Source: a candidate division WOR-3 bacterium (GTDB lineage Bacteria > Hydrothermota > Tepidihabitantia > Tepidihabitantales > Tepidihabitantaceae). From it: 64,000 nucleotides of DNA. The notes under the pieces were generated by a model. It had not been told where the DNA came from. It saw nothing but the letters and a program-made list of their open reading frames with translations, and did not search any database. Shown piece by piece: positions 5,357 to 29,593 of this stretch (position 1 is the stretch's first letter; each line of letters begins with the position of its first letter). The stretch is from assembly GCA_039801085.1 (NCBI GenBank), contig JBDRTY010000002.1:319339-383338 (forward strand), read 5' to 3'. The position numbers were made by a program, and so were the translations under genes.

Positions 5357-6808
5357 TTAAGTGAGGTGTGATTTTCGGATATTTAAAGAATATAGTTTTA
5401 AAAGGTGCGGGAACTTTTGCTGGATAATACGAATTCTTCTTCTTAGAGCAAACCGGTCGTTATAACCGAGTAATTTCCAAGCTTCGGACTTTATACCTCC
5501 ACATTTTTTAAGTGCTGCTTCGATGTAAGCAAGTTCCATCTTTGCCAGTTCTTCAGAAATATCGATGCCCTGTTCCAAGATTTCTACCTTTAAAGAATAG
5601 CCAGTGGTTTCGTTCTTGTTCCTTATTTCCATGGGTAAATCATCGATGTTGATGACGCTGCGTTGATTGTAATCGGCATAGATTGCCGCCCGCTCAATGC
5701 AAGATTTTAGCTCTCTAATGTTTCCTGGCCAGTGATAGTTTTGGAGATAGTCGATGGCGCTCGGGTGGATATCTTCACACCTGCTTTTCCCCTTCTGGTA
5801 ATGCTGTCTGAGGAAATATTTTGCCAGAAGCGGTATGTCATCTTTACGCTCTCGCAGAGGTGGAACATAAATTTCTACTGTTTTTAGACGGTAATATAAG
5901 TCTGGTCTAAATTTACCTGCTTTTATTGCATTCTTTAGGTCGATATTTGTCGCGGCTATAATTTGAACATCTAATTTAATTTCATCCGTTCCGCCGACAC
6001 GACAGAATTGTTTTGTATCTAGAAACCGAAGTAACTTTACCTGCACTTCCGGGTCCAAATCCCCAATTTCATCAAGGAACAAAATACCAGTGTCAGCTTT
6101 TTCTAAATAACCGATTTTTCGGCGATCTGCACCGGTGAAAGCACCTTTTTCATGGCCGAACAACTCGCTTTCAACTATGTTTTTCGTAAGAGCTGATATC
6201 GCAAGTGCTACGAAAGGTCCATTCCGTCTTGGATTTGTTTTGTGAATTGTGCGTGCGACGAGTTCTTTCCCTACGCCGGTTTCGCCGGTAATTAAGACCG
6301 AGATTTCCCCGTTGTTGGAGATCATCTGAATAATTTTCTTGATTTCTTTAATTGCTGGGGTGTTGCCAATCAGCTCGGCCGGTTCTAACTGGTGTAATTC
6401 ATCTTCTAGTATTTTTACTTTTTTCTCCAGCCTTTTCTTCTCAAGCGTTCTTTTGATTATATTTTTGAATTCCCAGACAGTAATTTTGTCTTTTTGTATA
6501 AAATCGTCGGCTCCCAGTTTTATTGCCTCAACGGCAGTTTGGATATCGCCGTATGCGGTCATGATGATCACAGGTATGTCTGGATAATAGGTTTTGGTGT
6601 ATTTTAAGAGTTCGATACCATCTTTGTTAGATGGTTTCGTATCATCTAAACGAATGTCAATTAGTGCAATATCAGGCTTTTCTTTCAGTAGTAATGTTCC
6701 TGTGTCAAATGTATGGGCTTTTAGAATGAGATATTGGCTTCCTAATACAGCTGCAAGTGAATTTAAATACTCTTCATTATCGTCAACGAGTAATATTTGC
6801 GGAATCAC
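5357..6808 (-). CDS. NtrC-family sigma-54-dependent response regulator
   Basis: This 483-residue protein has three parts. The first is an N-terminal receiver (DD at 9-10, phosphoacceptor D51, T84, K106). The second is an AAA+ domain with Walker A GETGVGKE (175-182), the sigma-54 contact loop GAFTGA (222-227), Walker B region DEIGD (246-250) and a WPGNIREL arginine-finger region (360-367). The third is a Fis-like helix-turn-helix at about 428-460. All residues needed for sigma-54 activation are present. It is the last gene of the minus-strand arm, 49 bp after the adenosine deaminase fusion. Sigma-54-like promoter elements lie in the intergenic region from which both arms start, so it probably activates its own operon and the divergent one. 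The receiver has a short insertion after D51 that is also seen in the lone receiver at 20084-20458, so both may be read by the same kinase. The role is secure; the target sites are inferred. Confidence 0.93.
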   Translation of the reverse strand: MIPQILLVDDNEEYLNSLAAVLGSQYLILKAHTFDTGTLLLKEKPDIALIDIRLDDTKPSNKDGIELLKYTKTYYPDIPVIIMTAYGDIQTAVEAIKLGADDFIQKDKITVWEFKNIIKRTLEKKRLEKKVKILEDELHQLEPAELIGNTPAIKEIKKIIQMISNNGEISVLITGETGVGKELVARTIHKTNPRRNGPFVALAISALTKNIVESELFGHEKGAFTGADRRKIGYLEKADTGILFLDEIGDLDPEVQVKLLRFLDTKQFCRVGGTDEIKLDVQIIAATNIDLKNAIKAGKFRPDLYYRLKTVEIYVPPLRERKDDIPLLAKYFLRQHYQKGKSRCEDIHPSAIDYLQNYHWPGNIRELKSCIERAAIYADYNQRSVINIDDLPMEIRNKNETTGYSLKVEILEQGIDISEELAKMELAYIEAALKKCGGIKSEAWKLLGYNDRFALRRRIRIIQQKFPHLLKLYSLNIRKSHLT

Positions 6809-6857
6809 TCCAACATGTTACATAATCATCACCAAAAAATCAAGTTAATTTGTGGGG

Positions 6858-9800
6858 TTATAAATTATAATCAATAGGGAAGTAAGGCTCCAATTCTTCC
6901 TGCCAAATGATTTTTTGATATATTTCCTCTTCAACCGCTCGGAGCAGTTCTCTTTTCTCATCTCGACTGATAAAGGCAAATTTAAAAGCGTGTTTAACTA
7001 ATCGGAGCACTTCCCATTTAGATAACCAGAGTTTGTTTTTATTATCATGGGCGTTTTGATAAAGCCGAGCCGCCTCTACAAACTCGTGGGAAAGTGTGCT
7101 GTTAGCGGAAAATATCGGATCATCAGTGTTAATCGTGCAGGGAATACCGTGCTGAATAAAATGAAACAAGGGATAATTTTCTTCGATTAATTGATTGGTG
7201 AGCAGGTTGCTTTTCGGACACAACTCAATGCAAATCTGAAGGTCCCGGGCGAGGTCCATTAAAAATTTATTGTTTCGGAGAGTTAAACCATGACCGATGC
7301 GGTTAGCATGAAGCAGATAAATTGCTTTCCAGATATTTTCCGCTGTTGCGGATTCCCCTGCATGGACAGTGATGGGAATACATAATCGAAAAAGTGGTAT
7401 AAATTCATTAATATAGCGTTCAACATCAGCAGCGGTTTCTATACCCGAAAGGTCAAATCCAACCAGGCGGCTGGGTTTCCATTCATAAAGGAAACTGCTA
7501 GGTGTCAAGGGAGTATCTAATTGATTTTCTTTGAGTAAGTGCAGGATTTCCCGTTGACGGTAGACTACGGTTGCCGCTATTTCCTGCGCAATTTGTTCTG
7601 GGGATTTATGTCTTTTGCCGGAGAATATGAAATTGGGCCAGATAAACCGATGTTGAGTGAAGTATAAATATGCGCTGAAAAGGTCGGCGCCATCAAAAAG
7701 CGCCTGAATTGATTCTTGAAGTATCAGATTTTTTTTGCAATAACCATCTGGGGCAACGCGTAGTTCAGTATAACGAACATTATCGCGCGTTGCTTTTTCC
7801 AAGAAATTGGCGACCGCGATCACAATATTCTCGTAATACTGCAGTTGGACAGAGCCGCAGAATATGTCTGGTCGTAAATAATTTTTAAGGGATCTTTTTT
7901 TGCCTTGCGCCGTTGTTCCGAGGGATAGTAATTGACTAATCAGTCCGGGTTGTTTGGGACTGTTAGCGCTAATAGAAGCGTTAATCTCTTCATAGAACTT
8001 AGTAATATGTTCTCCGTATTCTTGTAAGTTTCCGTTTCCTAGATGAGTGGAAATATTTTTTTGGGCTTTTTGCAGGTGGTCGATAATAACCGGTGGATAA
8101 TCGTTAGTGGAGAATAATAACTTTCTTGACCACTTATTCCAGAAATTTCGAATGTCTTCGCTTGTTTTACCTTCACAAACACCTAAGAAAACAATAAAAG
8201 TGCAAATAAATTCATCCCGATCAAGTTCGATACTACCTTTATTCAACTTCTGACAATACCGATAATAATGATAACTGAGAAAAAGCTCTTCAGGGGTAAA
8301 ATTATTTTCCAGTTGTTCTGGCCATTTATTCTGATTTTCATGAAGAAACTTGTTTAGCCACTTCCAATAAACATTGTTATTCTGCCCATTAGATTTTTGA
8401 GCGATTGAAATCAACTCATTTTTGAATTTTTCTAATATATCGTTTAAATTTATATTTTCACCGCACAGTTGCAGGTTTTCTTTCCAGTAATCAAGCGGGT
8501 TGATGTTTGTTGAACGAAAGCGATGAAAAAGGACATTTAAAGAGAGATGGAACACTAGGTCAACATCCATTGTACCACCCAGGTGACAGTGGAGCTCTGC
8601 TTTAGGTATTTCTTTTATCCACTGGTGCGCCAAACGGGTGGCAAGTGTATTTTTGTAATAAGATTCTGAGCTACTGACGTCTAAAAATGGTTCGGTCTGT
8701 AGTTTTCGACGCAGATAATTGGGCAGTTGATATAATTTGCTAAAATTACGCGCTTTGCCAATTGAACTTCGCTCGATTTGTGCGAGTATATGTCTACTTC
8801 GTTCCAGTTTAGCAATTAATGCCGGCAACTGGTATATTCTGTGTTTATATACATAACCTAAAGCACCTTCTTCCAGCGCCCGTTCAATGTTCTCAATATT
8901 CAGACTTAATGAAAGAACAACGACATCAAAAATTGCCGGACGATCATGTCCTTTTAAATTACGATTGACCGCGGTTCGGAATTTTATCAACTCTCTGATA
9001 ATCCTGTTCCCGTTGTTATAATTTCCCAAAAGCAAGTCAACGGCGATGAAATGGTACTGGAATTTTTTAGTCTGACTATCAAACAGGTCGATTTCTTTTT
9101 CTTCTTTAGGGGACGATGAATCATTCGAGGATGATATTTTTCTTACGCGCAACTTGCCTTGATTTTTATACATTAAAGTTAAAAATTCTCTGTCGATGAA
9201 TTTTCTCCATTCGTTTTCAGTCGTTATATGAATATTTACATTCTGCCCGAATTCGTTAACGATTTTTCTTAAGGGTTCTACTAAATTATCCGGGTTGTCA
9301 TCAATTACAAGTATGCTGAGATTTTTGATTTCACGGGAATTGACTTTAATACAATTTTGGCGGTCAAGGTTTTCAAGAAATGTCAGATATTCACGATAAC
9401 CCTTGTTCGAGGTTTCTTGTTCCATCTGTCTTAAATAATCGTGTTCAATTTTGGCTGGTGTGTTGTTGTTTATAGGTCCCCATAGCTCAGGAGGATATGA
9501 GTTAATGGCTAATCCATTTACCGGCATTTGCAGTAGCAATTCGTTAATCTTTTGTAGCAGATTGTAGGGGGAGGCGGTTGCTGCCTTACCCTTTTCCTCT
9601 AGGTATTTACGGAGGATACAGGTTCTATTATAAATTGATTGCGCATGGTCACCATGTGGTAAGGTTTCTAAGGAGAAGAAAAGTATCCGATTTCTGTCGG
9701 GTATATTTTCAATTATGTCCTTTATTTTTACTTCGTTTTCATCCCGACAGTGGTCACATAGGAAAACGATGGTAACATTAATGTCACTTTCAATTTCTAT

Positions 9801-9908
9801 CATTAAATTATTAAGAACATTATTTAATTCATCGAGCCCGAGTTTTAAGCCACAATTATTCCTATTTTGATTGCAGGGGAAAACTAATTCAAACCTAGGA
9901 TTGCTCAT
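6858..9908 (-). CDS. Receiver domain-adenosine deaminase fusion protein
   Basis: This is a 1016-residue protein. Residues 1-190 are unassigned. Residues about 197-370 read as a receiver domain: VIDD at 201-204, FIAVD with phosphoacceptor D291, S333 and K355, and a charged insertion near 250-280. The C-terminal part is an adenosine/AMP deaminase-type metal hydrolase: HxH at 440-442, HAGE at 849-852 (metal His and catalytic Glu), GHG at 872-874 and TDDP at 928-931. The metal and catalytic residues all appear intact, so it should be active. About 230 residues (470-700) are inserted after the first strand, much more than in housekeeping adenosine deaminases; from memory the RADAR defence deaminase RdrB also carries a large insertion, but homology is not shown. 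The start overlaps the preceding gene by 14 bp. I infer phosphorylation-controlled deamination of an adenine nucleoside or nucleotide; the substrate is unknown. Confidence 0.85.
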   Translation of the reverse strand: MSNPRFELVFPCNQNRNNCGLKLGLDELNNVLNNLMIEIESDINVTIVFLCDHCRDENEVKIKDIIENIPDRNRILFFSLETLPHGDHAQSIYNRTCILRKYLEEKGKAATASPYNLLQKINELLLQMPVNGLAINSYPPELWGPINNNTPAKIEHDYLRQMEQETSNKGYREYLTFLENLDRQNCIKVNSREIKNLSILVIDDNPDNLVEPLRKIVNEFGQNVNIHITTENEWRKFIDREFLTLMYKNQGKLRVRKISSSNDSSSPKEEKEIDLFDSQTKKFQYHFIAVDLLLGNYNNGNRIIRELIKFRTAVNRNLKGHDRPAIFDVVVLSLSLNIENIERALEEGALGYVYKHRIYQLPALIAKLERSRHILAQIERSSIGKARNFSKLYQLPNYLRRKLQTEPFLDVSSSESYYKNTLATRLAHQWIKEIPKAELHCHLGGTMDVDLVFHLSLNVLFHRFRSTNINPLDYWKENLQLCGENINLNDILEKFKNELISIAQKSNGQNNNVYWKWLNKFLHENQNKWPEQLENNFTPEELFLSYHYYRYCQKLNKGSIELDRDEFICTFIVFLGVCEGKTSEDIRNFWNKWSRKLLFSTNDYPPVIIDHLQKAQKNISTHLGNGNLQEYGEHITKFYEEINASISANSPKQPGLISQLLSLGTTAQGKKRSLKNYLRPDIFCGSVQLQYYENIVIAVANFLEKATRDNVRYTELRVAPDGYCKKNLILQESIQALFDGADLFSAYLYFTQHRFIWPNFIFSGKRHKSPEQIAQEIAATVVYRQREILHLLKENQLDTPLTPSSFLYEWKPSRLVGFDLSGIETAADVERYINEFIPLFRLCIPITVHAGESATAENIWKAIYLLHANRIGHGLTLRNNKFLMDLARDLQICIELCPKSNLLTNQLIEENYPLFHFIQHGIPCTINTDDPIFSANSTLSHEFVEAARLYQNAHDNKNKLWLSKWEVLRLVKHAFKFAFISRDEKRELLRAVEEEIYQKIIWQEELEPYFPIDYNL

Positions 9909-10875
9909 CTCGGGTATATTGTTTTAATTTTTCTAAAAGATCGTTGAGCAGTCGGAACCAGTCTGAGAAATTACCGATGGGGTGATTTATTATACAGGCA
10001 AGTTCATCCCAGCCGTCATAGTTAAGTATTTTTTTAACATCTTCTAATGTTGGGGTATCTGGGTGTTCAAGAATCTCCATAAATTTTGCCAGCTTGGATT
10101 CATTATCGAGGCGATATCCTCCTGAGGTTTGTTTTTCAAAACCGCACAGCAAAATGATTTTATCCCAAACGGGTTGCCATTCTTTTTGACATTCGACGAG
10201 CAATAGTTCTTCAATATTATTTAGCAATTCCCCCAATTCCTTGAGTTTTTGTTTAAATTGCGTAACCTTTATTGTTTGTTGAAGGAAAGCAATAGGATTA
10301 TCTTTTGAAATTTCCGGGTAATCATATATCTCTGCCAGTCGTTCTAAAGACAGAGCTGTCGGGGCAAAAAGGTTGATAAGTCGGTGTTTGAGCACATTGA
10401 AAGAATTAACTCTTTTTTGAAAAAAGACAGTAAAAATTGTGTCAAAATCTGCATTCGGGTTCAACTTGGTTTCCTCTCTTATTATCTTGCTAAATATTTT
10501 TTTGTTCTCTTTTACAAGTGAGTAATCACGTATAACTTTAACTTTATGTTTTAAACAATCAAATTTTTGTTTTAAAATATTGTGAGTAGCAATGAATACT
10601 TGGTGATCTTCCGAGTTTAGTTTTTGTGCCAGAGGCTCTAGATTTTTATTTAGATTTTCGATTTTCATTGTGTTTACCCATATGATGGCATTTTCTTCGA
10701 TGCGAATATCACTCGCATCGTCTGTAAAATTGATACGAAATTTATTATCGATCTTGTAAGCAAAATTTTTATTGCTATTTCTATTATCAAACCATGCCTG
10801 CCATTCTGGGATATTACCGATAAACCTGTCAGATTTTATGTCCGGTGAAGTTATTATTACCTGAATTTTAGCCAT
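9895..10875 (-). CDS. Unknown protein in the sigma-54 locus
   Basis: I do not recognise this 326-residue protein. It has no signal peptide or membrane helix. The N-terminal ~130 residues alternate short hydrophobic strands (IQVIITS, AIIWVNT, HQVFIATH, VKVIRDYS) with charged stretches, which suggests a small alpha/beta domain, perhaps a degenerate receiver or Rossmann-like fold without acidic active-site residues. The remainder is helical and rich in Leu, Lys and Glu (about 200-240), ending in a short hydrophilic tail. It sits 9 bp after the kinase ATPase gene and overlaps the deaminase fusion by 14 bp, so it is made with them and may be an adaptor or regulator of the kinase or the deaminase. 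AT-rich codon use fits its neighbours. Confidence 0.7.
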   Translation of the reverse strand: MAKIQVIITSPDIKSDRFIGNIPEWQAWFDNRNSNKNFAYKIDNKFRINFTDDASDIRIEENAIIWVNTMKIENLNKNLEPLAQKLNSEDHQVFIATHNILKQKFDCLKHKVKVIRDYSLVKENKKIFSKIIREETKLNPNADFDTIFTVFFQKRVNSFNVLKHRLINLFAPTALSLERLAEIYDYPEISKDNPIAFLQQTIKVTQFKQKLKELGELLNNIEELLLVECQKEWQPVWDKIILLCGFEKQTSGGYRLDNESKLAKFMEILEHPDTPTLEDVKKILNYDGWDELACIINHPIGNFSDWFRLLNDLLEKLKQYTRDEQS

Positions 10876-10884
10876 CGTCTGATT

Positions 10885-12984
10885 TTACTCAATTTTTGTG
10901 TTTAAGGCAACTTGGACCAGAAAGAATTTTGAAGGCTCGGTAGTCAGATACTGCTGAACGATGTTGAAGTCCAGAAACGGTGCATTGTCCGGGATATCAC
11001 CGGTAGTCTTTCCCCTTCCGGAATGAACGATGACATAGGGGATTCTAGTTTTAAACATACGGACAGTCTCTTCAAGATTTTTGCCCAACATTGCGGCGAT
11101 TTCCTTAAGTTTACTGGCGTGGATTAGAAGGATGTGAACCGGCACGTCTTTTTCTAACTCGAACCGGCTGTTATTAACATGCTGAAAATAACGCATTTCA
11201 ACATCCACCATTCTATTGCTGTCTGATTCTGCGTTATCGATCAGCCAAATTGTTTCATTGCCGTCGTCCCCCTTTTTCACACTCCGGGCTATATATATGC
11301 CCATCCAGTAGAGTTTTTCAACGAGATTAACATTCTTATCTTCTACCGCCTTTAATTTTACCGCCTCTTGTGCAATCCGTTCATCAATAACCAGCACATT
11401 CATCAAAGCCGACTCAACGAACTGACGGATGATCAGTCCTCCCAGTCTCTCAGGATCAATGTGGAAAAGGAAGTTGAAAAAAGGGTCACTGTAAGAAGCA
11501 AACTGATAAAAGTAAAGTTGGAGTTTGGTGCGGTCCATGCTCTGAAGTTGACCGAGGATGTTATGATGACGCAAGAGGAGAATCTTAAGGTATTTGTTAT
11601 TCAAAATTTCATTTATTCCCACCACTGTTTTAGGAAACTCAATTTTGATTTGATAATTTATGTTATTTATATTTTGGGTCCATTTTTTAGATCTGTCAAC
11701 GTCTTCAAAATAGATTACCATGTGATATTTTTTGTCTTTAATCAGGTCTTTAAGATGCAGGTCATACGCTTGCAGCAGAAATTTGTCGGGGTGGGTTGGC
11801 TGTAGATCCAGATTTCCTTTTATCTGTTTCTGGGGTAATTTCAGAGTTTCGGGAAGATTTACATTGGCATCAAGATAAAGGAGGCTGTAATTGGTGTCGC
11901 TGTCATTTATTATATCATCAGGGGGAATTACCCTTATCCCCTCAACTTCCCACTTGTTCCGATCTAGGATATTGTTGATTACATTTTGATTCAATATAGC
12001 GAGTAACTGTCTGGACTTTTCCAATCGGATAATGTAGCAGAATCTTTTTTTATCATCGCAGTTATTCCAGATTCCTTCCGGACATTCGCGGACTTCGATG
12101 TAATCGGGATTTTCAGTATCTACCTCCTTCAGCTGAGCATTACTTAAGAATGCGGCGCAGACTTTTATTTCCTTCAAACCCCAATTCCCCGGGGTGACTT
12201 CCCCCGTCAGGGGGTCAATTACCTTCTGGCAGATTTTATTGTTAAGAAAGTTCACAATGTTTACCAATGTTTTTTCCTCCCGCACCTTTTGAGCAGAATA
12301 GTCGGTGCTGGCACTCAGGAGAAGGTAAGCGAATCTGCTGTCGCGGGGGAAACTGCTGTCTAACAGTTCAGACGAAGGGAAAATAACGATTCGCAACTCC
12401 AACTGGTCATTTTGAGATTTATTATGGCGGTGTTTAGCAGCATTTCTGAGCAGACCTTTAACAAGGGAATGGAAAGCCTGAACTGCAAGGTCAGCACCCC
12501 GTGCCCAGACCAGAAAAGGTTTGGTATTTTCATACTCACAGCTGAATTTAATGTCCCTGCTTGGTTCCAGCAGGGCAATGGTAAAGTCAACCAGATCCGG
12601 ATCTTCGATTATCCTTTCTTGGTTGGCACTATTTTTAATTCTGATTTTGGGTAATACCCAGGTTATTCCTTTATTATTTTCCGCATAGCCGTATTTTATT
12701 TTTATTTGCGAAAGGGAGATGAAGTCGGAAAGATTGAGGAAGTGCATGACCAGAGGATTTTGGAACAGAGGCTGGATGAAGAATTGATGAAATTCAAGCC
12801 CAAGCCCCCATCCAGGCCATCTGGTTGCCATTCGGGCGATAAAATTCTCCTGTTTATGGCGTTGGATTGAGTGTTGGATATAGGCGCGTCTCAAGATTTC
12901 ATAAAGCAGCAGTTGCCGATCAGTTTTTTTTGTGCAATGGAGGTCTTGATAGTAATTTGACGTCAAATTACCTTTTACTTCCAT
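10885..12984 (-). CDS. Histidine kinase-like ATPase subunit (HATPase_c, second half of a split kinase)
   Basis: This 699-residue cytoplasmic protein begins with helices (about residues 20-95, including IARMATRWPGWG) that look like the second helix of a kinase dimerisation hairpin. A GHKL ATPase domain follows, with an N-box (LLRNAAKHR, N181 and K184), a later strand (AYLLLSAST) and a G-box-like GNWGLKEIKVCAAFL (about 266-280). The ATP-lid glycines are fewer than in classic kinases. Residues 350-699 are unassigned and contain no transmembrane helix. The start codon overlaps the stop of the preceding gene by 10 bp in the -1 frame. The phosphoacceptor histidine region is at the end of that preceding gene, so the two genes together look like one kinase. 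Confidence 0.72.
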   Translation of the reverse strand: MEVKGNLTSNYYQDLHCTKKTDRQLLLYEILRRAYIQHSIQRHKQENFIARMATRWPGWGLGLEFHQFFIQPLFQNPLVMHFLNLSDFISLSQIKIKYGYAENNKGITWVLPKIRIKNSANQERIIEDPDLVDFTIALLEPSRDIKFSCEYENTKPFLVWARGADLAVQAFHSLVKGLLRNAAKHRHNKSQNDQLELRIVIFPSSELLDSSFPRDSRFAYLLLSASTDYSAQKVREEKTLVNIVNFLNNKICQKVIDPLTGEVTPGNWGLKEIKVCAAFLSNAQLKEVDTENPDYIEVRECPEGIWNNCDDKKRFCYIIRLEKSRQLLAILNQNVINNILDRNKWEVEGIRVIPPDDIINDSDTNYSLLYLDANVNLPETLKLPQKQIKGNLDLQPTHPDKFLLQAYDLHLKDLIKDKKYHMVIYFEDVDRSKKWTQNINNINYQIKIEFPKTVVGINEILNNKYLKILLLRHHNILGQLQSMDRTKLQLYFYQFASYSDPFFNFLFHIDPERLGGLIIRQFVESALMNVLVIDERIAQEAVKLKAVEDKNVNLVEKLYWMGIYIARSVKKGDDGNETIWLIDNAESDSNRMVDVEMRYFQHVNNSRFELEKDVPVHILLIHASKLKEIAAMLGKNLEETVRMFKTRIPYVIVHSGRGKTTGDIPDNAPFLDFNIVQQYLTTEPSKFFLVQVALNTKIE

Positions 12985-13940
12985 CCCAAGCGCTTTATGA
13001 TTTCCTCACAAAATGTATCAAGGCGGTTCTGGATCCCGGTTTCAATATGAGAGTCGTAGTGAGAGAGATTCCGAGCCATAATCGCTGCGACTGCGGACCG
13101 CCGGGCATGTTTCCGGAGTTCATAGCTCAGTGTGCTGTAAAACAGTCCTAACAGTGCCTTCTGGATTACTATATGGTTAAAATTAAAAAGAAAAGACAAG
13201 AAATTCTCGTGCTCAGAAAAAGCTTCAAATTCTGTAATTATAATGATAGCAAGATAGTATACATCATAAAGATGTATAGGCAAATAGAGTAGGAGATCGA
13301 ATCCCAGTGCCATATGTATGTCAAAGATCGTTAAACAATATTTGAGCGTGTGCTCTATTTTGGTTGTTTTATAATTTTGGGATGAGTCCCCGCTTGTAAA
13401 TTTTTTCACGAAATCGGCCTCTAATTCATATTTACTAGCTAGCTGAATAATCGCACTATCTATTTGGTCCCTGTTTTGATTATTATTTATCATTCCTATT
13501 ATTTTACAGTAGAGGTCGATGTAAGTGGTTGTATTCTTATAAAAATAGATATCAATATATTTTTTGAGGAAATTCCATTTTTCGGAATTTGCTACCGCCA
13601 AGATGCTATTCTTGGGCAGAAGGAAATCGGATAGTGATGGCAAGTTTTCTAGATTTAGGACAATTCGGTTATAAAAAGAATCGATCCCTCCAAAAAAGAA
13701 TTTGTTTATTTTCGATAAATTATCTTGAAATTTATCTTTTTCAGTAGAAGGTTCAGGAACGTAATAAAACACTCTATTGAACACCGGTTCGCTGATGTTT
13801 AAGGCTTGCCGTAGATCGTCCGCTTTAATGGTTAGGACGAAATAGATCTTTTTTCCTTTATTGTAATTAATTCTATTTATGAAATCTTTCGTTGACTCGG
13901 CTATTTTTACTAGCCAGCTGGGATAGTAATCCTGATTCAT
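12975..13940 (-). CDS. Sensor/dimerisation subunit of the split histidine kinase
   Basis: I take the ATG at 13940, which overlaps the stop of the methyltransferase gene as ATGA; an in-frame ATG at 13970 with a GGGGGG stretch upstream is an alternative. The protein is 321 residues from 13940. The first ~270 residues are an unassigned, probably helical sensor-like region without clear membrane segments. Near the C-terminus is AIMARNLSHYDSHIETG (about residues 287-303), which resembles the H-box (MARNxSHNIGSH) of a group of soluble histidine kinases; the histidine in LSH is the likely phosphoacceptor. The protein stops shortly after this helix, and the second helix and ATPase domain are encoded by the overlapping next gene. 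Either a naturally split kinase or a frameshift could explain this. Confidence 0.65.
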   Translation of the reverse strand: MNQDYYPSWLVKIAESTKDFINRINYNKGKKIYFVLTIKADDLRQALNISEPVFNRVFYYVPEPSTEKDKFQDNLSKINKFFFGGIDSFYNRIVLNLENLPSLSDFLLPKNSILAVANSEKWNFLKKYIDIYFYKNTTTYIDLYCKIIGMINNNQNRDQIDSAIIQLASKYELEADFVKKFTSGDSSQNYKTTKIEHTLKYCLTIFDIHMALGFDLLLYLPIHLYDVYYLAIIIITEFEAFSEHENFLSFLFNFNHIVIQKALLGLFYSTLSYELRKHARRSAVAAIMARNLSHYDSHIETGIQNRLDTFCEEIIKRLGWK

Positions 13941-16619: not shown

Positions 16620-16663
16620 GCTTTCCTCCTTTTATTTGTTTGGCTTCATACAATTCTATAGTA

Positions 16664-16679
16664 AGCAAATTGCGTTCCT
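16664..16679 (-). promoter_or_regulatory. Candidate sigma-54 promoter for the minus-strand arm
   Basis: On the minus strand the sequence reads AGGAACGCAATTTGCT. It has the GG and GC pairs at the -24/-12 spacing and matches the consensus TGGCACGNNNNTTGCW except at positions 1 and 4. A start of transcription about 12 bp further would leave a short leader with the AGGAGG site of the substrate-binding protein gene. An NtrC-type activator encoded in the same arm supports it. Confidence 0.55.
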
Positions 16680-20053: not shown

Positions 20054-20083
20054 CAACAGGAGAAATTTATTATCTAATAAATT

Positions 20084-20458: not shown

Positions 20459-20496
20459 CAGAGTAAGAATGTTTTATTAATTTTTTTTAGATTTTT

Positions 20497-21633: not shown

Positions 21634-21635
21634 AT

Positions 21636-24600
21636 ATGGCTTCAATTCTAATTGGTTTGGGCGGTTTTGGGACTGGGGTTGTGCGCAGGGTTAAGCGTTT
21701 GTTTGAAGAAAATCCCGCTTATCACGGATTGATCAATCAAACCGTCTTTTTTTCCTCCATTGATATTGACCCTGATTTTGAGTCGGAGATTGCTTCTATC
21801 GATCAGATTTATTGGGAAGGATTCCGTGTCAGTAGGCCCAAACATGAAATTGATAAGCTGTTTAAAGAAGATGCAAATTTTAAGTATTGGTGGATTCCTG
21901 GTTTTACTTTAGAATCAGAGATAAAGGGAACAAGGGGGGCAGGTCAAATTAGAATTGCTGGCCGACTGGCTTTTTATTTGCATTTTCCCCGAATTAAATC
22001 AGCAATTAAAGAACGTATCGATCAGGCCAATGAACTGCGAGCCAAGTTACAGAAAGATCAGGGTATGGCAGCAGTAAATACTCCCAATGTTGTATTTTTG
22101 GTAAGTTCGCTTGCCGGGGGGACAGGTTCCGGCATACTGATCGACACAGCGATGTTAGTTAGGAGTTTGGTTGATGAGTCATACAAGATTTACGGCGTGT
22201 TCTGCGATGGGTCGGTAGTTGAAAAATTTGCGGGAGGTAATACCAAGTTATACGGGTTTGCTACATTGACCGAAATTGAACGATGGATGGAAAAGGGTGA
22301 TACTTTTGAATTTCATTATGGTAATATAAACGCAACGGTAAAAGGGCAAAATAGATTATTTGATATTGTGTTTCTTATACAGTCAGACAATTTACAGGGT
22401 CGGACATTTTACGTGCGAGGGGGTGGTGACCGAGAAATCAGAAACAATTATCAAGAATTGCTTGCTTCTTTTTTGGGGACGCTCCTTACATCTATTGACT
22501 TCGATGAGACGCTAGCCGCAAATTCTTGGAACAGATTTGATGCTTTGCCTCTCACTTCCAATGGGCGAAGCCGTAATTATTCCACCTTCGGTATTAGTCA
22601 TATATCGTTTCCAGTGCACAAGGTAACAAATTATTGCTATTCCCGTTTGATTAGCGAAGTATTGAAATTAGGATTTGATTTTTCCAATCCTGACTTGCAA
22701 AAATTTGAAAGAGATAATTCAATTTGCGAACGTGATGGAAATCAGTTGACAAATTATTTGCGCGATAAATGCCGGTCGGCGAGGTCTTATAAGGCAAAGA
22801 GAGACCGGGAGTTAATACGTTTTAGTGCTCCCCGGATTAAAAATACAGCGAGCTTTGTGAATTTGTTAGCACCGCACGGAATAGAAAAACTCATACTTGA
22901 TTATTCAGATTTGATAGAGGGTTATAAAAAAGAGTTATCTCAGGAATTGGAAGATCTGAAGAAAGTAATAACGAAAAACTTTGAGCGCACAATTTTTGAA
23001 TTGGTTGCGAGTCTTAGGTTTGACGAACTGAATAAGATCTTAGAGGAATTCATTGGAGTGATGCAAGCTAATATAGAACACACTAACCGGTCAAAACCAT
23101 TATGGGATAAAGCTGACGCACTTCGCGAACAATTAAGTGCTCGATACGATGCAGTGCTAAAGTGTAAAAGGGGTTTTATGGGTATTGGTGATGAGTTTCC
23201 CTCTCGAAAAGGAGAATTTGTTGCTACCCTGAAACAATGGACTGATGCCGAAATACAATCAGCTGAACGTAAAATAATGGAAAAGTTCTACAAAGAAATA
23301 ATTGAAACTACGAAACACATCAAATGGGTAATTCAATATCTTGGCGGTATTCTTAACGACTATGTTGCTCAGTGTGCTCGACAAACTGGAGCGTATGTGC
23401 AGCACGACTGGATTGTTGATCCTGAACGTTTTAGTTCTGGTGAATATCTTTTAAATTTAGAACTTTCGACATCGAAGTCTGATGTAGATGAATATATTTA
23501 CCCCGATATTAAAAAGATCTTTAAAGACGAGGGGGTTAGACAAGAAATCATCAATGGTTGTGAAAAAAAATACGATGGCATCGGGACTATTATAAGAGAA
23601 TTGTATGATAAGTATATTCAAGATCCCAATAAAATGGCAAAGTCGCTTAATAATAGCAGGAATGAATATGCCGCAAAGTTAGAGCAGACTTTTACCGGGG
23701 CAATTAAATCAAAAGTTTATGACTTGGTAAAAAGAATTCGGGTAGATGATGCGATGACGTGGTTTTTGCAGCGGACTTACAATGAGGTAAAGAACGTAAT
23801 GACTAATGGAAGCGGTGCTGAACAAGAGGGGGTTAAAAATCGCCTCAGCATGGTTTTTGGTACTGCTACGGCAAATCTGCTTATGAACAAAGATTATAAT
23901 GAGGATAGGTGGATGCGAGAGGCAGCACGGGGAATTCTAAAGCAGATGTCAGAATTGACGCAGCCTTTTATAAAAATTGAGGAGAACGACATAATAAGAG
24001 ATAATCAAGGGGAAGATCAGGTAGAGCACATCAAGATTCAGGTGGTATTTGCCCCAGAAAATTTTAAGTTCGCTAAAGAAATACCAGTTTCCTCTTGCAT
24101 TTATACAAAAATGACAGATAGAATTACTTTTTACACCCAACTGTCTTTCTTTCCTCTGTATCGAGTATTGTCATTTAAAGAAATAGCCGAGGCGTATAAT
24201 AAACATGTGGAAACTATTTTATCTGCCGTGGATAAAGGGCGTAAAACTGGAATTCCAGCGCATGCAGATTACAGGTTTTATACGATATGGCGCGATAATA
24301 TTTTGCACCCGGTGGCTAAAGAAGAGGAACGAATGAAGGACGTTATTTTATTGATACTTCTTGGAATGGCAATGGGATTTATCAAACGCGATAAACAAAT
24401 ATTCCGTATCTATTCCCCACGAGGAGAGGAGATTGGAAATCCTATCCGGGGGGTTGAGGCACTTTATAATCAGCTACTTAACGATCAAATTACTCGAAGG
24501 CAGCTTGGCACTTTGGTATGCGAGAAATTCATGAATGAATATTATGGTGATGATAAGCTTAAAGCGGTACAGAATCTCTTCAAAATAGCACAGCAGGAAT

Positions 24601-24755
24601 TGAAAAAGATCAAAACAGATAAAAACAGTAGCAGTTATAAGATCCTAAGCTTGCTGATTAAATTATCCTCAATAATGGATAAGAGCACTGTGATTCCAAA
24701 CTCAAATAAAGAATTAGAGGAATTGGCTAAAAGGTTGCAACAGTTAAGGCAATAA
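21636..24755 (+). CDS. Tubulin/FtsZ-superfamily GTPase-like protein (Tubulin_2 type)
   Basis: At 1039 residues it is far longer than FtsZ. The N-terminal part reads as a tubulin-like nucleotide-binding fold: the T1 loop GLGGFGTG (7-14), RGAGQIRIAGR (100-110) as a possible T3 region, and the signature T4 loop SLAGGTGSG (158-166). A hydrophobic strand FDIVFLIQSDN follows near 242-252. The remainder (about 350-1039) is largely helical and charged, with long segments that may be coiled coil, and no membrane helix. I recall that Makarova and Koonin (2010) described FtsZ-like families that occur with vWA proteins and were proposed to act in membrane remodelling; this gene fits that class in general. 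The gene lies 2 bp after the vWA gene and before a membrane protein gene. Polymerisation is inferred, not shown. Confidence 0.8.
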   Translation: MASILIGLGGFGTGVVRRVKRLFEENPAYHGLINQTVFFSSIDIDPDFESEIASIDQIYWEGFRVSRPKHEIDKLFKEDANFKYWWIPGFTLESEIKGTRGAGQIRIAGRLAFYLHFPRIKSAIKERIDQANELRAKLQKDQGMAAVNTPNVVFLVSSLAGGTGSGILIDTAMLVRSLVDESYKIYGVFCDGSVVEKFAGGNTKLYGFATLTEIERWMEKGDTFEFHYGNINATVKGQNRLFDIVFLIQSDNLQGRTFYVRGGGDREIRNNYQELLASFLGTLLTSIDFDETLAANSWNRFDALPLTSNGRSRNYSTFGISHISFPVHKVTNYCYSRLISEVLKLGFDFSNPDLQKFERDNSICERDGNQLTNYLRDKCRSARSYKAKRDRELIRFSAPRIKNTASFVNLLAPHGIEKLILDYSDLIEGYKKELSQELEDLKKVITKNFERTIFELVASLRFDELNKILEEFIGVMQANIEHTNRSKPLWDKADALREQLSARYDAVLKCKRGFMGIGDEFPSRKGEFVATLKQWTDAEIQSAERKIMEKFYKEIIETTKHIKWVIQYLGGILNDYVAQCARQTGAYVQHDWIVDPERFSSGEYLLNLELSTSKSDVDEYIYPDIKKIFKDEGVRQEIINGCEKKYDGIGTIIRELYDKYIQDPNKMAKSLNNSRNEYAAKLEQTFTGAIKSKVYDLVKRIRVDDAMTWFLQRTYNEVKNVMTNGSGAEQEGVKNRLSMVFGTATANLLMNKDYNEDRWMREAARGILKQMSELTQPFIKIEENDIIRDNQGEDQVEHIKIQVVFAPENFKFAKEIPVSSCIYTKMTDRITFYTQLSFFPLYRVLSFKEIAEAYNKHVETILSAVDKGRKTGIPAHADYRFYTIWRDNILHPVAKEEERMKDVILLILLGMAMGFIKRDKQIFRIYSPRGEEIGNPIRGVEALYNQLLNDQITRRQLGTLVCEKFMNEYYGDDKLKAVQNLFKIAQQELKKIKTDKNSSSYKILSLLIKLSSIMDKSTVIPNSNKELEELAKRLQQLRQ

Positions 24756-24771
24756 AAGCACTGTTCACTTA

Positions 24772-26799
24772 ATGTCTTTATCAGCCGCCACTTGTTTACT
24801 CTATTTAGTTAAAAGTGGTGATGGCATGTGGGATTTATTCAAATCTTTTGCTAATGATTTTTATAACCAGGTTAAACCGGAATCGCCAAGTATTAAAGTT
24901 AAAATTGGGGCGGTTGCTGACATCGAATCCACAATGAATGAAATCAACAAAGAAATCACACCTAGGGAGGTTATTTTTTTCCCCTTGATCGATGTTCAAT
25001 CGGCTTCCCAGGAGATTTATCACAGCCTCAACATACTCGGTGATAAGTACCCTAATATCATAATTTACACTTATCCGATTTTATTTTTGCCGTCCAATGC
25101 AGTTGTTGATTTTCTAAGGGAATTCCCAGATAAATTCTCTAATTACTCTAATTTTGAGTTTTGCTTTTTTTTCTCTGATAAAGATACGAGCAACCGCGCT
25201 GTTAAACCGGTTGATTGGATTGTGTTACTTAATCATTTTATGGCGCTGGTTCATGCAATAATATCAAATGGCGAATTGCGGTACTGGTTAGAAAAATTTA
25301 GCAACAGAGGTAAAGATGAAAAAGGCATTGCTAGCTTTGGGGCAACTTTGTTTCAGCTTCCGATTCGAAGGTTGATCGACGATAAATTAAGCACTAAATT
25401 TAAGGAATTCAGCGAAAATCACCTTAAAAAAATTAATAATAGGTTTGAAGTTAATCCTGAGGAACTGGTAAAAGAAGTTGTTGAAAAGGGTGTTGATCAA
25501 ATATTTTCCCGTTATTCGAATCCTCCGATTGATAGTCCCTTTACCCATATGCATGATGTTACTGACTATCCCTGTCTGCTGAAAACTAACTGCGAAGTGG
25601 ATAAGTCCCGAATTAAAGAAGAATCTCAAAGGATAACCGCCGAAGTTTTGAATACTGTTTACAACTCTCTTTATGATCATGTTAAAAAACATACTGTTGA
25701 AATTAATGAAGGGCTGAAAGAGATTAGAAAAACATCGGTACAAAAACTTCAAGAAGCGATTCCGGGATTTTTAAGAGGGGGCGGTACATTGATCGCCTTA
25801 GAAGAATGGTTGGAAAAAAGGGAAAAGGAAGCAAACGTTATTAATTCTAAAATGGATTACTTTCCTGAAGAGCAGAGATACATTTTTATTCCAGCACTTA
25901 ATAAAGTAGCCGAAATTTTAAAAAAGTTGTATTATTGGCAATCAAAGTTTCGATATATGGTTATCTTTTTTTTAGTTGGCTATGTTATTTTTTTATTGAC
26001 TGTGATTGCGTTATTTTCATTGGGGGGGGGAAACTTCCGGAACTTTATGCGATCAATTTTAGTGGGGGGAGGGGTCTTTTTTTTAATATTAGTTGTTCGT
26101 TATTTGAAATTGAACGCGATAAAAAATAAGGGGGCTACAGTTTTGAAAGAACTAAAAGATCAATATGACAGTTTTATAAAGAATACGACACATGATATTA
26201 AAGAGTGGTTCAAGAGATGGTTAGTAAAGCATTTGTCTACTAAACTGATAATTAGTTTTGAAAATGTTCTTGACGAAATAAGAGAGATATGCTTTATTTG
26301 GCGCCGGACTTTACAAAACTTTGAGTTCTGTAAAAATTCTGATACGCCGTCCCAGTTTGTTCAGGAAATAAATTCCCACGGGAATTTATTAGATGATTTG
26401 ATTGACAAGGAAGTTCAAAAAAAGGAAGTTTTTCAAAATCTATCTGTGATATTTGATCATTTCTTGGAGAGTGTTTCTTATCATAATCTGTCTAAAAATA
26501 TACAAACCACCTTAATCCAATTAAGAGAAGAAATTTTTCAAATAATCGAACAAGAAATTCCGCCTCCCTTGATAGGGTTGGGCGCAAATAAATTAAATGA
26601 TTACATTAGAGTAACCGATAATAATATTGTGACGGGTTGTTCGTCCTTAATTAAACCTGAAACACCCAAGTTGTATTTTGTTGTTAAACCCCAGAGTCTC
26701 ACTTTGGAATTTAGCGTTGAAAAAACCTTTAATTGGAACCATAAAGAAGCTCTGTTAATAACCGTAATATACAAGCTAATTCCAACTAAATATGATTGA
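24772..26799 (+). CDS. Two-TM, coiled-coil-rich membrane protein of unknown function
   Basis: The protein is 675 residues. Residues 1-390 are soluble and rich in Lys, Glu and Asn with probable coiled coils. Two membrane helices lie at about 395-450 (VIFFLVGYVIFLLTVIALF and ILVGGGVFFLILVV). The C-terminal 220 residues are again soluble and helical. Both large domains would thus be on the same side, probably the cytoplasm, as no signal peptide is seen. A G9 tract (26022-26030) falls in the loop between the helices. No family is recognised. Position right after the tubulin-like gene suggests a membrane tether for that protein. No good ribosome site precedes the ATG; a start at a later methionine (residue 19) is possible. 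It overlaps the next gene by 8 bp. Confidence 0.72.
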   Translation: MSLSAATCLLYLVKSGDGMWDLFKSFANDFYNQVKPESPSIKVKIGAVADIESTMNEINKEITPREVIFFPLIDVQSASQEIYHSLNILGDKYPNIIIYTYPILFLPSNAVVDFLREFPDKFSNYSNFEFCFFFSDKDTSNRAVKPVDWIVLLNHFMALVHAIISNGELRYWLEKFSNRGKDEKGIASFGATLFQLPIRRLIDDKLSTKFKEFSENHLKKINNRFEVNPEELVKEVVEKGVDQIFSRYSNPPIDSPFTHMHDVTDYPCLLKTNCEVDKSRIKEESQRITAEVLNTVYNSLYDHVKKHTVEINEGLKEIRKTSVQKLQEAIPGFLRGGGTLIALEEWLEKREKEANVINSKMDYFPEEQRYIFIPALNKVAEILKKLYYWQSKFRYMVIFFLVGYVIFLLTVIALFSLGGGNFRNFMRSILVGGGVFFLILVVRYLKLNAIKNKGATVLKELKDQYDSFIKNTTHDIKEWFKRWLVKHLSTKLIISFENVLDEIREICFIWRRTLQNFEFCKNSDTPSQFVQEINSHGNLLDDLIDKEVQKKEVFQNLSVIFDHFLESVSYHNLSKNIQTTLIQLREEIFQIIEQEIPPPLIGLGANKLNDYIRVTDNNIVTGCSSLIKPETPKLYFVVKPQSLTLEFSVEKTFNWNHKEALLITVIYKLIPTKYD

Positions 26800-29593
26800 C
26801 ATTAAGGCAATTATTGAAAAGCCTGAAAATCTAAGGTATTATAAAGGTCAGGTTTATGAGGTTGATGAGGTAGGGATAGTTGAACCCAAATACTACGATA
26901 TAGAGAAGATAGGTATTCCATATAAAAATATCCTGAAGGTTTTATTGAGCAATTTGCAACTTTCCCATTTATACCAACACCAAGGGTTATTCATTAAGGA
27001 GATAGCTGATGGAAAGGATGCTTATTTATGTTTAGCACCAGGAAGTGGTAGTTCAATGGCGGTGGACTTAGCGGTAGTTGCGACAATACTTACTAAACAT
27101 CGGACTGCGTTGTACCTCCGCCCGTCAACTTATGATTTGCGGTCGCGGCTGGCAGTAGTTAATGATCGCATAAAACAAATGAGGTGGGATTGGTTGGTGA
27201 AAGCCGAAAAGGCAGACTGTATTGAGGAATTCTGTTCGGCACTCGGGAGGGAGCCGGATATAATCATAACAGCACCGGAAGTTTTTAAGGAGTATTTTTT
27301 AACTAAATTCTCGGTTGAGGAGGGATCCACTTGGATGGATGCGTTACTGCATGTTGTGATTGAGGAAATCACAATGTTTCACCCGGAGGAGTTATTTCAT
27401 CTCAGCAATCTTATTTCTTCCTTAATAATTGAGAGAAATAACTCAATTCAATTTTTACTCACAAGTGCACCAGTTGGGTCACCAGAAAAATTTGCCCGTA
27501 ATTTAACCCACCGGAACTGCTCGGTTATAACAAGTAGCTATAGCGGCAACAATAGATTCAAAATTTTATATTGGATTCCCCAGATTGTAGCCAAGGTTGA
27601 TGACGACACTGGAGAAATTCAAGTTTTTCGGGAAAATTTTTTCGAAGAATTAAAAGGTTGCTTCAAAATTTTTTGTCGTTCAGAAGATAACATTCTGGTT
27701 TGGAATTTAATTCAAAGTTTTAGTTCCGCAGATTACCGTTTACTTAAAGAAGATTTGTTGCGTTCGGTGCAGTTAGAAATCCCCAAGTTGGAAATAACAA
27801 TATGTGGCGATATTTCCGAAATACCTCGTGACAAATTTAAAAAGTTTAATCGAGTATTTGTTTTAGGAACGGCACCAATCTACAAAAATATCAAGCAGAT
27901 ACTCAGTAATTTAATTACCGAAAATGGCTTGGCAATAATAATTGCCAACGAAGATCCATTATCGTTTTTCTTTGTACGCAGGTTGGATATGGTTGATAAG
28001 CTTCGTTTACCAGACATTATAATTCCTCAAAATAAAAGTGTAACGGAGTTTTATTTTTTTAGAACTCTTGCTAGTAAAAGAATAAATTCTTTAGGTTATG
28101 AACAATTGATTTCTGTTTGGGGTAAAGAACTAACAGAAGAGATTCTCAGCCAACTTGTACAGGAAAAGTTAATTGAAAAAGGTGACGGTAGGGTTTACGT
28201 ATTAGACCGAGATAAAATTTATGACAAGCAGAAAGATATTCCATGGGGCATCATGGATAAAAACTTTTATGAGCTTTCAACGAGTAGCCAAGAAATTTAC
28301 TCAATAAGAAAGTTTGTAACAGAATCACTTTTCCCATATATTGTCTACCCTGAAGCAGTTATTTATAACGGGCTGGAAAAATACCAAATATCTTCCAGTT
28401 TTGACGGCAGTTTTGACGGTGATAAATGTAAGCTTAATTACGCAACAGAGCATACCCCGGTGTTGACTGTCCCGATAATTAATCACTTATTTTCAAGCAA
28501 GCACACCGAACCAATTGCTTATAAAGAAATTAAAGGATTAGGAAGATTGGAATTATTACCCGAACAAACGATTGAAATTCAATTCTGCGGGTTTAAATAT
28601 TTTTTAGATTTTAAGTTTCAGAATACGGGGGAGGTAAAGGTTAAACCAATTAGTCGTATAAGAAAAACATCGCTGATTAAATTTAACACAGATAGCTCCG
28701 CAGGCATTGCTCAGATTTGGAATATCTTTCTTCCCTATTTTTTCCACAATTTTGAACGGCTGATTGCTGTTTTCTCTGACGAATCCGCTGTTTATATTAT
28801 TCCTCTGGTCGACAGTGGTAATGAAGTGTTGAAGGAGATTTATGAGGGTATGGTAGAATTACTTAATTTACTTTATGAGTACGGGTATGAATTGCTAATT
28901 TCTTGCCCTTGTTCTGATGGTTGTCCACTATGTATAGAATACAAAAAAACAAATGTAACGCTCAAAGGGAAAAAACACGATATCTTGCTAACAATAGGGC
29001 AGGCTTTGGGCAAAGAATCAGAAACCAAGAAATTCCTTATCTATAAATCTGAGGGGCTTGATGCTGATTCAGCCCAAAAACAATACGAGGCAGAACAAAA
29101 AAGAATCATCGGACTTTTTCGCAACAAATTAGGTCTGGAAATTCAAAAGCCAGCGAGAATCACGGTTGATAACTTAGATAAAAAACTATTAGGTTTTTGT
29201 TCTTCCGAAGGTGGAGTAAAGGTGATTCCTAAGATTCCTCAAGCATTGGCAATTCAAGTCATTGCTCACGAATATGCTCATAACTGGGAATTTGAACAGA
29301 CCAACAGCAATGTTTTGAAAGAAAAAATAATTAGTGAAGGGTTTGCTGAATGGGTTGCATTTAAAATTTTGGAGTTTTATGGTTTGTTGGATTATATTGG
29401 AAAGATCAAACTACGGGACTATGACGAATATGGTAAAGGGTTTAATTTATGTAAAAGAATCGAAGATGAAATAGCTGGTTTTCTAGGGGTGATCGAGTTT
29501 GTTAAAACAGGTATAGTTAGAAATCCATTAAATAATGAGGAATACGATTTAGCCCGATTAATGGAGGAAGGCTGGGTATATTATAACAAATAA
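26792..29593 (+). CDS. Degenerate MrfA/Hrq1-type helicase fused to HExxH metallopeptidase
   Basis: This is a 933-residue protein. The first ~700 residues follow the layout of superfamily-2 helicases of the MrfA/Hrq1 (DUF1998) group: a Q-motif-like YQHQ (61-64), and a Walker A position that reads APGSGSSMA (82-90) in place of APTGSGKT. The DExH position reads EEIT (191-194), and a cysteine cluster CPCSDGCPLC near 704-713 corresponds to the zinc site of MrfA. Loss of the catalytic Lys and Asp suggests no ATP-driven helicase activity. The last ~130 residues contain HEYAH (about 825-829) and a downstream EGFAEW glutamate about 20 residues later, the pattern of a gluzincin-type zinc metallopeptidase. 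I infer a nucleic-acid- or nucleotide-sensing scaffold that controls a protease. It ends the plus-strand arm. Confidence 0.75.
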   Translation: MIDIKAIIEKPENLRYYKGQVYEVDEVGIVEPKYYDIEKIGIPYKNILKVLLSNLQLSHLYQHQGLFIKEIADGKDAYLCLAPGSGSSMAVDLAVVATILTKHRTALYLRPSTYDLRSRLAVVNDRIKQMRWDWLVKAEKADCIEEFCSALGREPDIIITAPEVFKEYFLTKFSVEEGSTWMDALLHVVIEEITMFHPEELFHLSNLISSLIIERNNSIQFLLTSAPVGSPEKFARNLTHRNCSVITSSYSGNNRFKILYWIPQIVAKVDDDTGEIQVFRENFFEELKGCFKIFCRSEDNILVWNLIQSFSSADYRLLKEDLLRSVQLEIPKLEITICGDISEIPRDKFKKFNRVFVLGTAPIYKNIKQILSNLITENGLAIIIANEDPLSFFFVRRLDMVDKLRLPDIIIPQNKSVTEFYFFRTLASKRINSLGYEQLISVWGKELTEEILSQLVQEKLIEKGDGRVYVLDRDKIYDKQKDIPWGIMDKNFYELSTSSQEIYSIRKFVTESLFPYIVYPEAVIYNGLEKYQISSSFDGSFDGDKCKLNYATEHTPVLTVPIINHLFSSKHTEPIAYKEIKGLGRLELLPEQTIEIQFCGFKYFLDFKFQNTGEVKVKPISRIRKTSLIKFNTDSSAGIAQIWNIFLPYFFHNFERLIAVFSDESAVYIIPLVDSGNEVLKEIYEGMVELLNLLYEYGYELLISCPCSDGCPLCIEYKKTNVTLKGKKHDILLTIGQALGKESETKKFLIYKSEGLDADSAQKQYEAEQKRIIGLFRNKLGLEIQKPARITVDNLDKKLLGFCSSEGGVKVIPKIPQALAIQVIAHEYAHNWEFEQTNSNVLKEKIISEGFAEWVAFKILEFYGLLDYIGKIKLRDYDEYGKGFNLCKRIEDEIAGFLGVIEFVKTGIVRNPLNNEEYDLARLMEEGWVYYNK

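Follow-up and report, generated by a model that had tools for sequence, protein, structure and literature searches.

A low-GC island in a candidate division WOR-3 bacterium combines a Liv transporter and two-component signalling with a receiver-fused, Cad1-like deaminase

Introduction

What brings an amino-acid-type transporter, a two-component relay, a nucleotide deaminase and a tubulin-like GTPase together on one accessory island? The question is raised by sixteen genes spanning 24 kb (positions 5357-29593) in a 64-kb stretch of a candidate division WOR-3 genome (G000:C2:319339-383338; assembly of 1.91 Mb in 7 contigs), to which we refer as the window. Deamination of ATP is an antiviral strategy in both Cad1 and RADAR, the known triggers being cyclic oligoadenylates or an unknown cue. 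By sequence, the closest relative of the island deaminase is Cad1, which converts ATP to ITP in CRISPR systems; in the island protein a receiver takes the place of the CARF domain. The whole is best explained as one signalling-effector system, in which a phosphorylation-gated Cad1-like nucleotide deaminase would stand under positive-feedback sigma-54 control, a reading that we hold with as much doubt as confidence. Several features described below can be read directly from the sequence: the genes and their domains, catalytic and phosphoacceptor residues that are intact, the promoter, the recurrence of the locus with exchange of its effector, and its nature as an island.

Results

An accessory island of sixteen genes

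A preliminary description of this DNA had reported sixteen packed, low-GC genes in two divergent arms, with overlaps between most neighbours. All sixteen are present at the places given, seven on the minus and nine on the plus strand, and the spacers between them run from -34 to +49 bp, overlaps predominating. The guanine-cytosine content is 0.394 in the island against 0.548 in the rest of the window, the low-GC block being sharply bounded at 5.3 and 29.6 kb. The domain calls of that description (sigma-54 response regulator, adenosine deaminase (ADA), Liv, receiver (REC), vWA, Tubulin_2 and a two-transmembrane protein) are borne out by Pfam, transmembrane and sequence evidence.

We compared the locus with 147 WOR-3 genomes, the window's own (G000) included. 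The deaminase and tubulin genes are both absent from two genomes of the same genus. One of these, G107 (L078), has an empty site: its left-flank match ends at window position 5333 and its right-flank match resumes at 29630, with 58 bp between, and its flanks are 88% and 86% identical to those of the window up to the island ends. The arrangement in G108 is the same with a longer spacer. The island (5334..29629) has thus been inserted between a pair of convergent 4Fe-4S genes, and its outer ends are unlikely to be chimeric joins of the assembly. No end repeats were seen at its ends and no integrase among its genes, and an Rfam search gave no match.

A Cad1-like deaminase joined to a receiver

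The putative effector is encoded by one long gene of the minus arm:

6858..9908, minus strand: 1016-aa protein with an N-terminal domain (1-190), a receiver (about 195-375) and a Cad1-like adenosine deaminase (about 405-1016)

The preliminary description had called an adenosine deaminase fusion. The fusion is present and can be drawn more sharply, the receiver standing mid-protein after a further N-terminal domain. The C-terminal part matches PF00962 (7e-39), and the PADLOC profile CARF_ADA matches the protein with 272.8 bits over the linker and ADA (profile positions 208-601 of 605). No CARF domain was found in the protein by this match, which begins at 208; the receiver is present instead. 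Rounded, the scores against this profile are 273 bits for the window protein and 257 for its relative in G130, versus 106-154 for five ordinary ADAs. Ranking of PDB structures points the same way, with Cad1 best for the window ADA (92.5 bits versus 73.6 for the best ordinary ADA) and the order reversed in a control with an ordinary WOR-3 ADA (Cad1 71, ordinary ADA 177 bits).

The catalytic residues are intact (HxH at 440, HAGE at 849, H873, TDD at 928-930). Canonical ADA binds ribose through Asp19, at which position Cad1 has a glycine (PMC12669630); the island protein likewise has Gly444 there, while ordinary WOR-3 ADAs carry Glu or Arg. The HCHLGG start is also shared with Cad1 (PMC11645235, PMC12669630), and both proteins have a regulatory Rossmann-like domain on the N-terminal side. 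The island protein differs from Cad1 in its receiver, which stands in place of CARF, in a long insertion after HxH, in an Asp where Cad1 has Asn and in its non-CRISPR locus. We infer that its substrate may be a 5'-phosphorylated adenine nucleotide, ATP being the likeliest.

The receiver retains the acid pair D203/D204, the phosphoacceptor D291, S333 and K355. A profile built from three receivers, namely this one and the receivers in the REC-HD protein of G120 and in a 368-aa protein of G072, has response-regulator-type proteins as its top PDB matches. The locus shows no linkage to cas genes, Cas10 being found only on another contig. This Cas10 palm domain (G000:C1:192687-193082) marks a type III CRISPR system elsewhere in the genome, away from the window.

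A signalling kernel with exchangeable effectors

The remaining minus-arm genes and the first five of the plus arm encode the predicted signalling machinery:

5357..6808, minus strand: NtrC-type response regulator (RRsigma54), with a receiver (PF00072, 1e-16), a sigma-54 AAA+ domain (PF00158, 5e-64) and a weak Fis helix-turn-helix
9895..10875, minus strand: 326-aa protein with the motif LKHxxxxxFAPxxLxL, in the same slot as a 397-aa protein in G120 and a 369-aa protein in G072
10885..12984, minus strand: 699-aa ATPase (HATPase-like) half of a split histidine kinase (N-box 178, G-box 266), with a receiver-like C-terminal region
12975..13970, minus strand: 331-aa DHp half of the split kinase (phosphoacceptor candidate H304)
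13937..15514, minus strand: methyltransferase-GNAT fusion (PF02475, 5e-8; GNAT of GphF, 1e-4)
15495..16619, minus strand: LivK-type substrate-binding protein (PF13458, Peripla_BP_6, 1e-49)
16833..17717, plus strand: LivH permease (PF02653, BPD_transp_2, 2e-28), probable ATG at 16842
17714..18583, plus strand: LivM permease, assigned by sequence and by LivM matches in G120, G072 and G143
18564..19337, plus strand: LivG ATPase, assigned by sequence and by matches to Liv genes elsewhere
19334..20053, plus strand: LivF ATPase, assigned in the same way
20084..20458, plus strand: stand-alone receiver REC124 of the DIRLxExDxxNxDG subfamily (PF00072, 2e-14)

A soluble split kinase had been proposed at the outset, and this holds through a bridge between genomes. 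A single 827-aa protein of G072 matches both window halves, the DHp protein (H-box ARNLSHYDSH; 52.6% identity over 38 aa, E 2e-7) and the ATPase protein (N-box LLRNAAKH; BLAST E 4e-4). The G072 protein in turn matches a fused 1251-aa kinase in G120 (E 4e-8), which matches a 1422-aa kinase in G135 (E 1e-43). H-box, N-box and G-box are conserved in all four loci, split over two proteins in the window, and a receiver-like C-terminal region can be recognised by eye in each of the four kinases. The two-component receivers have their DD, D, T/S and K residues. Close relatives of REC124 occur only beside LivH, in G120, G130 and G072; a REC124 profile at more than 160 bits gives 4 matches in the 147 genomes (G000, G120, G130, G072), all beside Liv genes. 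The 326-aa protein shows weak kinship to its 397-aa and 369-aa counterparts (hhalign; hmmsearch E 1e-4 with a two-row profile).

Together these parts form a kernel in which a Liv transporter is joined by a cytosolic histidine kinase and a small receiver, with an NtrC-type sigma-54 activator and a receiver-fused effector completing the set. Further versions occur in G120 and G072, partially in G130 and G143, and more remotely in G135. On the single strand of G120:C272, genes for a YhcG-type nuclease, vWA, FtsZl1, two DCD-fold proteins, REC, LivHMGF and LivK are followed by a KamA-like radical SAM protein, the fused kinase, the 397-aa protein, RRsigma54 and REC-HD. In G072:C8, RRsigma54 is divergent from LivK, a methyltransferase, a homocitrate-synthase-like aldolase, the kinase and the 369-aa protein, continuing with a 462-aa protein, a PreA-like/Maf fusion, a REC protein, a 157-aa protein, REC and LivHMGF. 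The partial loci read ADA-150-REC-LivH-LivM (G130:C207, WFRC01000207.1) and LivHMGF-RRsigma54 (G143). The looser relative in G135 has a polar amino-acid ABC transporter, a kinase, a CysQ-like phosphatase, a tyrosine-decarboxylase-REC fusion, receivers and RRsigma54. The preliminary description had suggested a neighbourhood search with the tubulin and deaminase proteins as queries; the signalling parts of both arms (LivK/kinase/response regulator and REC/LivHMGF) are found together in each of the three loci that are completely assembled.

The effector slot is exchangeable, with REC-ADA in the window and REC-HD in G120, and the receivers of the two are related. Across the loci, receivers are fused to changing enzymes, whether ADA, HD or decarboxylase. 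The slot beside the binding protein varies as well, holding the methyltransferase-GNAT protein in the window, a KamA-like aminomutase in G120 and a methyltransferase plus aldolase in G072. This changing small-molecule enzyme suggests ligand synthesis, and the methyltransferase-GNAT protein could possibly make or modify a small ligand.

A scan of genome contigs with an alignment of the ADA pair recovered the G130 contig alone, because the patterns are narrow. Viral contigs gave no match. Among plasmids, the ADA queries gave ordinary ADAs only, FtsZl1 gave Thermaceae only, and the G120 kinase, the window ATPase protein and REC-HD gave no match.

Several proteins of the related loci are worth recording. 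The decarboxylase fusion of G135 (L072:1204-3498) carries its receiver at the C-terminus, and the fusion in the G072 signalling locus (L069:2931-4925) joins a PreA/dihydroorotate-dehydrogenase-like part, 4Fe-4S and a Maf nucleotide pyrophosphatase. The DCD-fold proteins of G120 form a tandem pair adjoining FtsZl1 (L027:5090-6026); we considered them as dCTP-deaminase effectors and dropped the idea, the canonical catalytic motif being absent by eye, and they are perhaps nucleotide sensors. Small genes of four-helix-bundle type, judged by eye, lie between LivH and LivM in G130 (L028:4055-4456) and G072 (L068:15840-16250 and 17225-17644). In G012, the contig stretch that holds a LivK gene 39% identical to that of the window also carries a Pycsar-type pair (L041:221-1532; cyclase PF00211, 8e-6; PycTM PF18967, 8e-13). 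A 518-aa protein, cyclase-like by eye with no Pfam match, stands between LivK and LivHMGF in G116 (L042:3604-5160), another hint that Liv genes serve as signalling front ends in WOR-3.

A sigma-54 promoter between the arms

As first described, the arms share a single intergenic control region:

16620-16832, between the arms: intergenic control region of 213 bp
16799..16814, plus strand: perfect sigma-54 -24/-12 promoter, TGGCACATAATTTGCA, facing LivH and directly upstream of it
16664..16679, minus strand: weaker sigma-54-like site, AGGAACGCAATTTGCT, facing LivK and 45 bp upstream of it, with the core GG-N10-GC kept

The perfect site is the only exact sigma-54 match in the window and one of 5 in the genome (1.9 Mb); the number of exact sites expected in a 213-bp spacer is 2e-4. 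The weaker site may be a chance occurrence. LivK has a TTG start preceded by a Shine-Dalgarno sequence, AAAGGAGG. In G072 the spacer that separates LivK from the divergent RRsigma54 holds a perfect site, one of 10 in that genome, 28 bp upstream of LivK, and in G120 a site with two mismatches lies upstream of the REC-Liv genes. RRsigma54 has an intact GAFTGA loop (residue 222), and RpoN is encoded in the window's genome, so that the activator, the sigma factor and the -24/-12 promoter of a sigma-54 regulon are all in place. Orthologues of RRsigma54 (E below 1e-120) adjoin Liv genes in G120, G072 and G143. The sites before Liv genes in three genomes, together with RpoN, support the view that the island's own regulator would control the Liv genes and hence the downstream operons.

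A tubulin-like module at the end of the plus arm

The last four genes of the plus arm are of a different kind:

20497..21633, plus strand: signal/anchor-vWA-transmembrane protein with a C-terminal domain (PF00092, 1e-8; transmembrane helix 245-263)
21636..24755, plus strand: FtsZl1-type tubulin-like GTPase (Tubulin_2, PF13809, 1e-41; GGTGSG at 161)
24772..26799, plus strand: 675-aa protein with two central transmembrane helices (397-415 and 429-447)
26792..29593, plus strand: inactive MrfA/YprA-type helicase with a zinc site (6znp, E 5e-10), fused to a zincin metalloprotease

The vWA protein has an intact MIDAS motif (DVSGS) and a C-terminal domain that is FHA-like by eye; with PF13809 above its cut-off in the adjoining gene, the two constitute an FtsZl1-vWA operon. 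The topology of the 675-aa protein is matched by the protein after FtsZl1 in G135. The preliminary description had called a dead helicase-protease, and the helicase part is indeed dead, Walker A being GSGSS with no Lys and the DExH box EEIT; the zinc site (CPCSDGCPLC, 705) is kept and the zincin motif (HEYAH...E at 826) looks intact.

FtsZl1 matches occur in 6 of the 147 genomes, two of them (G000 and G120) in a REC-Liv locus, and these two proteins are very diverged (29% over 180 aa). The tubulin-like/vWA part, found in only two of the loci, thus appears to be an attached module. In G030, G020, G116, G135 and Thermaceae plasmids, FtsZl1-vWA pairs lack accompanying signalling genes. Beside the G030 pair lies a HEIGH zincin-like fragment (L023:3347-3682), a second protease next to such a pair. 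Three Thermaceae plasmids (L052 pMESIL01, L053 pMtWR-220, L054 pTHEOS01) conserve a block of vWA, FtsZl1, a protein of about 680 aa and brxL, with helicases, DNA methyltransferase or Swt1-HEPN genes nearby and, on one plasmid, both a helicase and a DNA methyltransferase. By gene content this setting is of a defence type, FtsZl1 appearing there as part of a BREX-like defence locus.

Outside the island, a selenocysteine tRNA gene lies at window positions 46422-46516 (minus strand).

Discussion

How the parts could work together

In the mechanism that we propose, the phosphotransfer partners, substrate, ligand and purpose are what we infer from the gene content. LivK and LivHMGF would sense an amino-acid-like compound or take it up, and the methyltransferase-GNAT protein may be what produces or alters that compound. 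Sensing or uptake would set how active the split cytosolic histidine kinase is, and this kinase would phosphorylate three receivers, those of the NtrC-type activator, of REC124 and of the deaminase protein. Once phosphorylated, the activator would amplify both arms by turning on their divergent sigma-54 promoters, while phosphorylation of the receiver would unlock the Cad1-like deaminase to attack ATP or another 5'-phosphorylated adenine nucleotide and arrest the cell. The same signal would also drive the FtsZl1-vWA-2TM-protease genes, as a membrane-associated module attached to the system.

The preliminary description had suggested that the genes act together. This stands in that the arms co-occur and form what appears to be one co-regulated signalling system; the half comprising the tubulin-like, vWA, two-transmembrane and helicase-protease genes lies outside the conserved kernel. 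The deaminase probably belongs with the signalling kernel, and we lean towards recruitment of the tubulin module to the same signal. With a deaminase that is Cad1-like and would be receiver-gated, a nucleotide-modifying response is likelier than generic membrane remodelling. Growth arrest or defence as the purpose is an even call, because nutrient control uses the same regulators.

Relation to known systems

The combination had been put forward as undescribed, and our searches of open-licence PMC papers turned up no description of it, nor any paper joining CARF, an adenosine deaminase and a receiver domain. One part is older: the FtsZl1-vWA pair was published in 2010 by Makarova and Koonin, who inferred membrane remodelling, and a reviewer there pointed out that in Arthrospira FtsZl1 adjoins a binding protein for branched-chain amino acids (PMC2875224). 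Those operons share with the island a Tubulin_2 gene with vWA and transmembrane proteins, but none was reported with a kinase, sigma-54 regulator, receivers or deaminase (PMC2875224). The conflict systems of Kaur et al. (2020) likewise combine tubulin, vWA and peptidase genes, in neighbourhoods that vary, with effectors that can be exchanged; the island differs in having no TRAFAC GTPase or MoxR, and thresholding would fall to a histidine kinase. Histidine kinases are not among the vWA-associated effectors there, and the island combination is therefore not covered (PMC7159879). RADAR (RdrA-RdrB) uses an ADA-superfamily deaminase against ATP in defence (PMC11645235), whereas the island has no RdrA-like ATPase and places control with two-component genes. 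No PglZ, BrxC or PglX of BREX was found among the sixteen genes, which gave weak BrxHI and BrxD matches only, and PADLOC returned single-gene matches with no full gene set of any listed defence system.

Alternative explanations

The strongest competitor is a nutrient-scavenging regulon, in which Liv uptake would be placed under NtrC-like/sigma-54 control during nitrogen or carbon limitation and the enzymes would recycle purines, pyrimidines and amino acids, with no growth arrest. The island shares with NtrB-NtrC control of LivKHMGF its NtrC-type activator, sigma-54 promoter and amino-acid transporter genes, and the relatives add amino-acid and pyrimidine enzymes (aminomutase, aldolase, decarboxylase, PreA-Maf fusion) and, in G135, a polar amino-acid transporter in place of Liv plus the Tyr-decarboxylase-REC fusion. 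However, the deaminase resembles Cad1 and not a salvage ADA, it is exchanged for REC-HD, the island is accessory and patchy, and nutrient recycling offers no role for FtsZl1-vWA or the zincin; the split cytosolic kinase of unlisted family, the receiver-fused effector and the island location also set the locus apart from NtrB-NtrC control. We regard a nutrient regulon as rather unlikely.

Two or three unrelated modules, namely a Liv two-component system with its deaminase and an FtsZl1-vWA operon, might instead have come to lie next to one another in a low-GC hotspot by accretion, each working on its own. The FtsZl1-vWA pairs that stand apart from signalling genes fit such accretion, as does G072, which has the reverse. 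Yet the diverged FtsZl1 genes of G000 and G120 both adjoin REC-Liv although the gene orders differ, and in the window the FtsZl1 module follows on from LivHMGF-REC within one transcription unit, the gaps being 2-38 bp; accretion thus seems improbable to us. That the deaminase is a type III CRISPR effector, a Cad1 answering cyclic oligoadenylate from the genome's Cas10, is suggested by that Cas10 and the Cad1-like ADA part but is very improbable indeed, given a CARF_ADA match with no CARF, an N-terminal half that includes a receiver with a complete phosphorylation site, the lack of cas linkage and the absence of a Cas10 match in G120, G072 and G135.

Several observations weigh against one phosphorylation-gated signalling-effector system. 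The deaminase keeps Asp930, the Asp296-to-Asn substitution of Cad1 being absent, so its substrate may differ, and its receiver taken alone is weak to Pfam (E 0.003). The kinase matches no Pfam family. AlphaFold models of the deaminase and ATPase proteins (pLDDT 33 each) are too poor for use. Two of the supporting loci are interrupted by contig ends, G072 has the signalling genes with no FtsZl1, several of the same parts fit nutrient control, and the in-depth genome search covered WOR-3 genomes only.

Implications

Tentatively, the island may represent a new kind of immunity or population dormancy, in which a transporter-coupled two-component relay takes the place of a cyclic nucleotide and directly phosphorylates exchangeable receiver-fused nucleotide-attacking effectors (Cad1-like ADA, HD) and drives a tubulin-vWA machine, while a neighbouring enzyme may make the signal for LivK. 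A receiver slot that holds ADA in one locus and HD in another follows the pattern seen in conflict systems. If the deaminase is receiver-gated, the Cad1/RADAR enzyme class would be pluggable into ordinary two-component signalling. Defence-type nucleotide attack would then be joined to the sensing of environment or neighbours, and the FtsZl1-vWA module, for which an explanation has long been lacking, would acquire an input signal that can be tested.

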